DNA of 64,000 nt from Branchiostoma floridae (taxonomy: Eukaryota; Chordata; Leptocardii; Amphioxiformes; Branchiostomatidae): contig NC_049985.1 of NCBI RefSeq assembly GCF_000003815.2, positions 5,838,929 through 5,902,928 on the forward strand, written 5' to 3'. Shown here in pieces: positions 54,591-57,193 of the stretch (the stretch's first letter is position 1; every line of letters starts with the position of its first letter). The notes under the pieces are model-generated. The model was not told the DNA's origin. It saw nothing but the letters and a program-made list of their open reading frames with translations, and did not search any database. Both the position numbers and the translations under genes were made by a program.

Positions 54591-57193
54591 ATGGCGACTG
54601 CTTCTTTCTCGGAGAAAGTCAGCGACGACTTCATCCAGTGTACGATCTGTTGCTACAACTTCAAGAAGCCGAAGGTTCTTCCTTGCTTGCACACCTTTTG
54701 TGCGCACTGTCTGCGAGAATGGGCCCAGAAGAACGACGGAGACACCTTTCCGTGTCCTATTTGTCGTGAGCAAGTTTCATTGCCCGAAAATGGCGTCGAG
54801 GGTCTAAAGGACAACTTTTTCCTCGCTAGCCTGGTGAAAGCCGTGACGGAGCACCACAAGGTTCGCCACGGGCAGGATGGCCTCCTCTGTACCACTTGTG
54901 ACGAAGGGAAGCCAGCCACGTCCAGGTGTTCAGACTGTGCTGAGTTTCTGTGTGAGAGTTGTGAGTTGGCACATCGTCTTCAGAGAGCTACCAAGGGCCA
55001 CACCCTCTTCACGTTTGAGGAACTGAAGACGGGCAAATATGACGGTGTCTTCAGGACAAGGAAAGTTCCGCCGTGCCCCAAACACTCCGGAGAAATCCTG
55101 AAGCTCTACTGTAGGACATGCGAGACTCCGATATGCAACGAATGTGCCTTGTTCGAACACAGGGACTTACAACTATTACACAACATAACGCGCATTGAAG
55201 AGGTGGCCACTGAGAAAAGAAAGACAATCTTAGATCTCACACCACAATGCCAGGCCCAAGTGCAATTCTTCCAACGGACAGAAGAAGTTCAGAACCGCTT
55301 GAAGGAACAACTTCAGAAAAATACAGAGTTGGCTCGTCAGAACGTCCACCAAACTGTACAAACAATGGTTGCCCTGGTAAAGGAAGAAGGAGAACGACTT
55401 CTAGCTTGCATCGATACAGAAGAAACATCCAGGAAGAAACAGATCGAAGCAGAGATAGAGGGAGCGCAGATCGGTCTGGCGAGCGCCAAAAGCACCTGTG
55501 AGTTTGCAGAAACTCTAGCTCGGGAGGGAGGCGACTACGAAGTAGCGTCTTTCTCACAGGACATGGCAACGAGACTGATTGACTTGACGAAACCACCTAT
55601 CGGCACGGTGGACTTGGGACTGGTAAACATTCCTGTTGATTACTCGGTTATGGGGCGCAAGTTTGAACAAAACATCCCGCCACCTGGCCAATACGTAATG
55701 CTAGAATCAACAGAGAGAGAACTACGTTCTTTGCTGAAAGGAGCATCCCCAAGTCAGACGAGCAAACATGGTAAGTACAAGTAGTAACGTTAGGGCGTTC
55801 ATCATGTGAAACAGGATATGGTAACGTCGCTTGTTGGTCATCTATTCTTCTGTGAGGTCATCTATTGTTTCGATAGACTTCAGCTCATATCAATGATGTA
55901 CCCTTTGGTAGTAAGTTCGCTCTTATGTTCGCTTCTGCTACAACAGAATACTGCAGAGAAGCGATTGTATATAGTGTATAAACGTCGTGGCGAACTACTA
56001 TCCGGATGTGTAGTCTACTTACAAGAACATTCTATCATTCTCCTCACCAGGAGTGTCACCAGCGTCCTCTGCATCTGGAAACTTGGACAAAGAAGACACG
56101 TGTCCAATTTGTCTCCGTTACTTCACTGGGCCTGTAACAACCACACGTTGTAAGCACAAGTTCTGTGCTGACTGCCTGGACAATGCCTTGAAAATTTCTG
56201 GTCAGTGTCTTGTCTGCAAGTCTGTGATTGGACAATTGAAGGGCAACCAACCCCCGGGGACAATGACACATCGCATTGACTACCTACACTCCCTTCCTGG
56301 CTATGAATACATGAACTGTCGCTCAATTGCAACAATCGAAATCCACTACTACTTCCCTGATGGTACACAAGGGGTATGTAATGTAAATTTGATTTAGGGT
56401 GACTCAAAATTTCTAATTTGTTTTGAAATATATATTTTTTTACAACAAACCTGTTCATATTGGCCAAAATTTGATTTAAGGTGTTTCATATGTCAGTCTT
56501 GACGTGTAATTGCCACATATAACTAAATTTGTTTTGGATGCATCAATGCACAGGGACTTTTGTTTTGGACAAGACATACAGCTGTTTTTCTTTTGCAGTA
56601 TTCTAACACATATATTATTAAGTCATTGAATGAATAGATTGAAGCCTTGATAGTTGATATTCTCATTTCAGCCAGAGCATCCAAATCCCGGGAAGCCCTA
56701 CACTGGAACATCACGGACAGCCTACCTTCCAGACAATGCGGAGGGCCGTGAGGTTCTCAGGCTGCTGAAGCAAGCCTTTGACAGCCGTCTAGTCTTCACC
56801 ATTGGTACATCAGCAACTACAGGATTGACTGATACTGTGGTGTGGAATGGTATCCCTCACAAAACCAGCAAGTATGGTGGACCTAACAGGTAACATGCTA
56901 TATATCCATTGCTTTTCCAATCCTTAATTAATAGGTGAGCCATTAAGGGGGTTGCAAGTTTTGAATCCAATGAGTCTACTGAATGAGTCTGTACCGAATC
57001 TGAAATGTTAGCACTTACTTACATTTACAGCATTTACAGAACATATTGAAGTAATAAATAATTTTTGTCATGCAGGGAAACATTGTAACTAAAAGATATT
57101 TATTGTTTTCACTTTTTTTGCAGCTACGGCTACCCTGATCCTCAGTATTTGGCAACAGTGAAGGAGCAACTAGCTGCAAAGGGCATCAAGTAG
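54591..57193 (+). CDS. TRIM-Deltex fusion E3 ligase: RING, 2 B-boxes, coiled coil, RING, DTC
   Basis: Exons are 54,591-55,770, 56,051-56,373, 56,672-56,889 and 57,124-57,193. All junctions are GT/AG and in phase; 1,791 nt gives 596 aa. Residues 17-58 are a C3HC4 RING, 100-138 B-box 1, 162-198 B-box 2, and ~200-330 a coiled coil. Exon 1 is a close paralogue of the upstream TRIM gene. Exon 2 opens a second RING (C411-P-I-C to C449) followed by the Deltex C-terminal domain: [55 protein letters not shown]. This tail is closest to DTX3/DTX3L. RING-DTC modules ubiquitinate substrates, and in human family members can ADP-ribosylate ubiquitin; both activities are only inferred here. Retaining intron 1 would add four residues and stop, giving a TRIM-only protein. 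The fusion is predicted from phase and could be two adjacent genes if intron 1 is not spliced. Confidence 0.8.

Follow-up and report, generated by a model that had tools for sequence, protein, structure and literature searches.

A single predicted gene of Branchiostoma floridae, located at 54591..57193 on the plus strand of the window (the whole 64,000-nucleotide stretch analysed, C7:5838929-5902928), appears to encode a TRIM ligase with a conserved, catalytically retired Deltex module, in the order RING-Bbox-Bbox-(coiled coil)-RING-DTC. We give this reading a probability of about two in three. The original prediction had described a TRIM-Deltex fusion with two RING domains and did not foresee that the DTC is under selection with a retired active site. 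If the reading is correct, the gene offers a natural DTC that selection has maintained after its catalytic retirement, a direct handle on the non-catalytic roles of this domain. It would also mean that TRIM and Deltex ligases merge by exon capture and that a TRIM RING may replace a Deltex RING, and it suggests that non-catalytic modules can be made from Deltex parts.

Enumerating GT-AG junctions by script, we recovered four exons and a stop that sum to 597 codons (596 amino acids). This model was one of the 10 stop-free combinations listed, and was chosen because the joined text of exons 2 and 3 aligns gap-free over the junction to DTX3L and DTX2. Exon 1 (54591..55770, +) starts with the ATG, codes for RING 1, two B-boxes and a putative coiled-coil region, and ends in a phase-1 donor (CATG/GTAAGT, the slash marking the junction). 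It is followed by a predicted intron of 280 bp (55771..56050, +), for which only short, repeat-like matches were found elsewhere. RING 2 (CPIC...CLVCK) and the start of the DTC are encoded by exon 2 (56051..56373, +; acceptor CACCAG/GA), the DTC core by exon 3 (56672..56889, +), and the DTC end and stop by exon 4 (57124..57193, +). Pfam analysis of the joined protein placed a RING at residues 17-58, B-boxes at 99-138 and 158-200, a second RING at 409-450 and the DTC at 457-595, with an E value of 6.8e-55 over profile positions 1-133 of 133. No ATG precedes RING 2 in the open frame that contains exon 2 (from 56014), so this RING needs an upstream exon. Junction enumeration and Pfam together thus reproduced the four-exon anatomy first proposed, which is confirmed. 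B-box 2 carries a two-residue insertion (residues 195-196) between its last two His residues, absent in all six other aligned copies. Four other open reading frames of the window gave no Pfam match at E 0.001.

Described TRIM proteins fall into C-terminal classes with B30.2, NHL, FN3 and other domains; by Pfam the window protein belongs to none of these and has a DTC instead. It shows the RING followed by two B-boxes of a TRIM/RBCC protein and also, by Pfam and alignment, the RING with an immediately C-terminal DTC of a Deltex protein. The best structure matches of its RBCC were TRIM3, TRIM2 and TRIM28 (8amr, 8ams, 6h3a), which have the RING and B-boxes in common with it, and the TRIM28 alignment spans residues 17-246. 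Unlike these three, the window protein is devoid of an NHL, filamin, PHD, bromo or B30.2 tail by Pfam, and a RING-DTC follows. The tail matched human DTX3L (PDB 3pg6) and DTX2 (6y22) best, the DTC aligning over its length with E values of 1.6e-46 and 7.6e-46. RING 2 resembles that of DTX2 in the Lys after its last Cys, whereas the window protein differs from both in having Pro and Gln for His and Glu and a TRIM head. The WWE or KH-type N-terminus of DTX1/2/4 and DTX3L is missing, with no KH or WWE Pfam match up to E 0.1; DTX3 is also described as having no WWE domain (PMC8424196, in excerpt).

Branchiostoma floridae TRIM proteins with MATH domains have been reported (PMC3503706, in excerpt), and like the window protein these are TRIM heads with unusual tails, although their tail is MATH instead of Deltex. 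Neither Deltex nor DTC is mentioned in the main text of that paper. Among the listed titles and abstract openings on TRIM with Deltex or DTX3L, none describes a TRIM-DTC protein. The combination of these two known ligase families was accordingly not found described in these literature searches, and it may have been annotated before.

We searched the 513-Mb genome for both halves of the gene. The DTC search returned 39 matches, which were grouped into 20 loci (labelled L0nn, with WIN for the window copy). For the RBCC exon, 105 of 470 candidates were scored, so that the counts are lower bounds, and merging two rows for the head of L010, which is broken by frame changes, into one copy left 104. 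At least 13 copies form a subfamily at 67-100% identity, the next matches lying at 39% and below. The exon itself was read in ten of the 13; for one (C7:24538124, L030) only the tail was read, and two (C7:23875865 and C4:28309159) were unread; the stretch downstream of C7:24708161 (L029) reads N. Among the candidates scored, a same-strand DTC lies within 10 kb downstream of 9/13 subfamily copies (seven nearest and two outer tandem copies) vs 1/91 other RBCC matches, with a Fisher p of 2.5e-9 in which the tandem copies are not independent. This ratio, together with matched within-clade dS, ruled out chance adjacency of RBCC and DTC.

The RBCC-linked loci have predicted tails that are DTX3L-like. 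In L012 and L015 (RBCC-KH_DTX3L-RING-DTC) the head belongs to the same subfamily (75-76% identity) and the junction is phase 1, as in the window: a phase-1 donor closes the RBCC, and among the AGs of the following exon, which holds KH_DTX3L and RING, several are compatible with phase 1, including one in text common to both loci (ATTTACAG/CTGCATCA). These two differ from the window copy in having KH_DTX3L and in keeping the catalytic His and Glu. The C19 duplicate, L025, has the order RBCC-RBCC-DTC, as in the window; its RBCC and DTC start share one 486-residue frame with RING 2 absent, the DTC start reaching a Pfam E value of 0.049 only, and the exon-4 acceptor is gone. In L027 the RBCC frame continues into a second RING, of which it holds the first half, and a GT-AG pair can join the remainder; that frame has no ATG before RING 1, and we found no Pfam second-RING match there and no exon 4. 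This recurrence, the two paralogues that are intron-less at the join, the phase-compatible junctions and the matched ages all favour the original view of RBCC and RING-DTC as one gene, and the window copy is probably a single gene. Two further loci deserve mention. In L023 (C4:16104700-16114600) a same-strand macro-RING-DTC gene is preceded, at a distance of about 330 bp, by the end of a distant RBCC (36% identity), possibly an independent TRIM-Deltex join. In L030 (624-1016; C7:24539250-24542250) the RBCC head copy at C7:24538124 is followed by a frame matching MLLE, the poly(A)-binding protein C-terminal domain (E 4.2e-32), which makes a TRIM-MLLE fusion possible.

The closest RING-DTC among the matches listed is that of L009 (C7:24365017), a KH-macro-RING-DTC locus with 78%, 91% and 87% identity in the three exons. 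By Pfam it has macro, RING and DTC domains and a sub-threshold KH_DTX3L match, and it differs from the window copy in these additional domains and in keeping His and Glu. No subfamily RBCC lies near it among the matches listed, which counts against a fusion.

The catalytic residues of the DTC were located by counting along the DTX2 and DTX3L alignments. In DTX2, H582 and E608 form a His-Glu pair that activates the ADP-ribose 3' hydroxyl and is termed strictly conserved among DTX proteins; every substitution tested at these positions, E608Q included, impaired Ub-NAD formation (PMC7615817, in excerpt). For DTX3L, formation of Ub-DNA was abolished by H707A and impaired by E733A (PMC11460948, in excerpt). 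The window DTC lacks this pair, having Pro at the position of H582/H707 (in WNGIPHKT, exon 3) and Gln at that of E608/E733 (in KEQL, exon 4). Loss of the pair predicts a DTC that can no longer attach ubiquitin by ester linkage to ADP-ribose or nucleic acid. The His is retained in 17 of the 20 loci, the exceptions being Pro in the window, Ser in L025 and Glu in L027, all three RBCC-linked; four of the seven RBCC-linked DTCs (L010, L012, L015 and L022) keep it. At the Glu position, readable in 17 loci, 14 have Glu, L026 has Asp, and the window and L025 have Gln. The last exon of L010, L020 and L027 was left unaligned, and stop-read positions as well as neighbouring or RBCC matches in L012, L023, L025 and L027 were kept out of the residue maps and trees. 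The window and L025 have in common CAA for the Glu position and GGN for the neighbouring Asp, and at the His position they read CCT and TCT where L009 has CAC. From these codons the Glu loss, as reconstructed, predates the window/L025 duplication, and His-to-Pro probably predates it too.

RING 2 is altered as well. The CPxC motif of the window copy has Leu where L009 and the six readable of eight outgroups have Pro, a residue that we take to be an E2 contact; the L014 RING exon reads N and so its RING cannot be scored. RING 1 ends in CPICR and RING 2 in CLVCK, so that the Arg linchpin (described in PMC7615817, in excerpt) is present in RING 1 only. With the His-Glu pair and the conserved RING-2 Pro replaced, the expectation of a working Deltex ligase in this module is not borne out by the residues predicted.

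The window DTC is nevertheless under purifying selection after these losses. Changes were polarised by parsimony with L009 as sole outgroup, each base treated alone, excluding a gapped stretch around RD positions 87-93 and sites with a different base in each of the three copies. Since the split from L025, 14 changes were counted in the window DTC, 3 nonsynonymous against 11 synonymous, which is about 0.09 of the neutral expectation (p 3e-5). The corresponding counts for the L025 DTC are 45 and 16, about 0.90 of neutral and not different from it, so this copy appears to decay neutrally. The L025 RBCC is constrained (0.16) and that of the window less tightly (0.31-0.36). Between the window and L009, dN/dS over RING-DTC is 0.20 (0.11-0.30); for RING 2 alone it is 0.25, and because the interval is wide (0.07-1.01) constraint on RING 2 is not established.

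The DTC tree places the window with L025 (support 99) and this pair with L009 (91), and L010, L012, L013, L015, L022 and L027 form a separate group (support 100). Within clades, dS of RBCC and DTC is similar: 0.34/0.38 for WIN-L025, 0.26/0.34 for L012-L015, 0.39/0.35 for L012-L022 and 0.41/0.46 for L015-L022. Between clades, heads show lower divergence than tails: dS for WIN-L012 is 0.55 (0.43-0.72) in the head and 2.04 (1.16 to infinity) in the tail. The head and tail intervals are apart in four of the six pairs of WIN or L025 with L012, L015 or L022, which makes one ancient fusion unlikely; they overlap slightly in the two L022 pairs, and L027 pairs are near saturation and uninformative. This between-clade mismatch is most simply read as repeated use of one TRIM head, which probably joined two or more Deltex backbones, each unit duplicating later. 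Gene conversion among heads could also produce the mismatch.

Overall, we propose that a phase-1 intron came to link a TRIM first exon with a truncated RING-DTC tail of the DTX3L type, related to L009, and that the Glu of the DTC, and probably the His too, was lost in the common ancestor of the window copy and L025, the duplicate on C19. RING 1, with its Arg linchpin, would carry out E2~Ub activation, and the retired RING-DTC may have been retained to serve a TRIM dimer in binding, positioning or oligomerisation. The anatomy, its recurrence, the residue losses and the later purifying selection on the DTC come from computation, whereas splicing, the coiled-coil dimer, TRIM-driven lysine ubiquitylation and a DTC ligand or partner are parts of this scheme that we infer. 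As the catalytic His is important for ADP-ribose binding (PMC7615817, in excerpt), the odds of a protein partner are no lower than those of ADP-ribose. The suggestion that two RINGs act in series as the point of the fusion fared poorly, since RING 2 is absent from the RBCC-linked L022 and L025. L022 (C7:24608000-24617900) has an RBCC followed by KH_DTX3L, macro and DTC, and compared with L013 it lacks RING 2 in frame; its DTC yet keeps His and Glu, which suggests that a TRIM RING can stand in for a Deltex RING. More tentatively, and with the odds rather against it, a mobile TRIM head may have become attached by splicing to two or more Deltex backbones, and perhaps to MLLE; the window Deltex would be a selected pseudoenzyme whose RING-DTC has ceased to transfer ubiquitin and instead directs the TRIM ligase to targets marked by ADP-ribose, nucleic acid or Deltex complexes.

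Two transcription units would be an unlikely alternative to a single gene: exon 1 would be a stand-alone TRIM and the RING-DTC exons behind it an unspliced, L009-like relic. The exon-1 frame indeed stays open to 55784, with a stop just past the donor (ending HGKYK-stop), and four of the 13 subfamily RBCC copies among the candidates scored have no DTC within 10 kb. DNA homology to L009 begins at 56034, 17 bp ahead of the exon-2 acceptor; because acceptor 56051 lies inside sequence homologous to L009 coding DNA, it looks new and not inherited. The neutral decay of the DTC in L025, whose RBCC is constrained, points the same way, and the two intron-less paralogues help the fusion less than they might, L025 through this decay and L027 through its missing ATG. 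A relic is, however, hard to reconcile with the strong constraint on the window DTC since the split, or with the matching ages of heads and tails. Neutral simulations of the window RING-DTC produced on average 3.6 stops and 73 altered residues, never fewer than 46, and 2% of runs ended without a stop, whereas the actual sequence has no stop and 26 listed differences from L009.

We also weighed two variants of the fusion itself. Continued hydroxyl-directed enzyme activity of the DTC through other residues seems very improbable: the DTC fold is conserved and under selection, and the domain keeps the Tyr that matches DTX3L Y719, an important residue (PMC11460948, in excerpt), but both positions at which all tested DTX2 substitutions were harmful are changed here. 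Use of alternative heads, with either of two RBCC exons spliced to the single RING-DTC tail, is somewhat easier to accept, though still improbable. The window contains a tandem RBCC exon (49700..50915, +), 85% identical to exon 1, whose donor is phase 1 like that at 55770, and the C19 locus repeats the RBCC-RBCC-DTC order. Against this, an open frame at 52302-52685, after the first RBCC, could be the partner of that head; it reads TYKLPDIS, cf. TYKLPEIS before the KH-like region of L009, and gave no match by blastp or Pfam. We retain a single gene with a retired Deltex module as the preferred reading. A tandem repeat at 50805-51030 duplicates the 3' end of this first RBCC exon, including its donor text, 109 bp further on.
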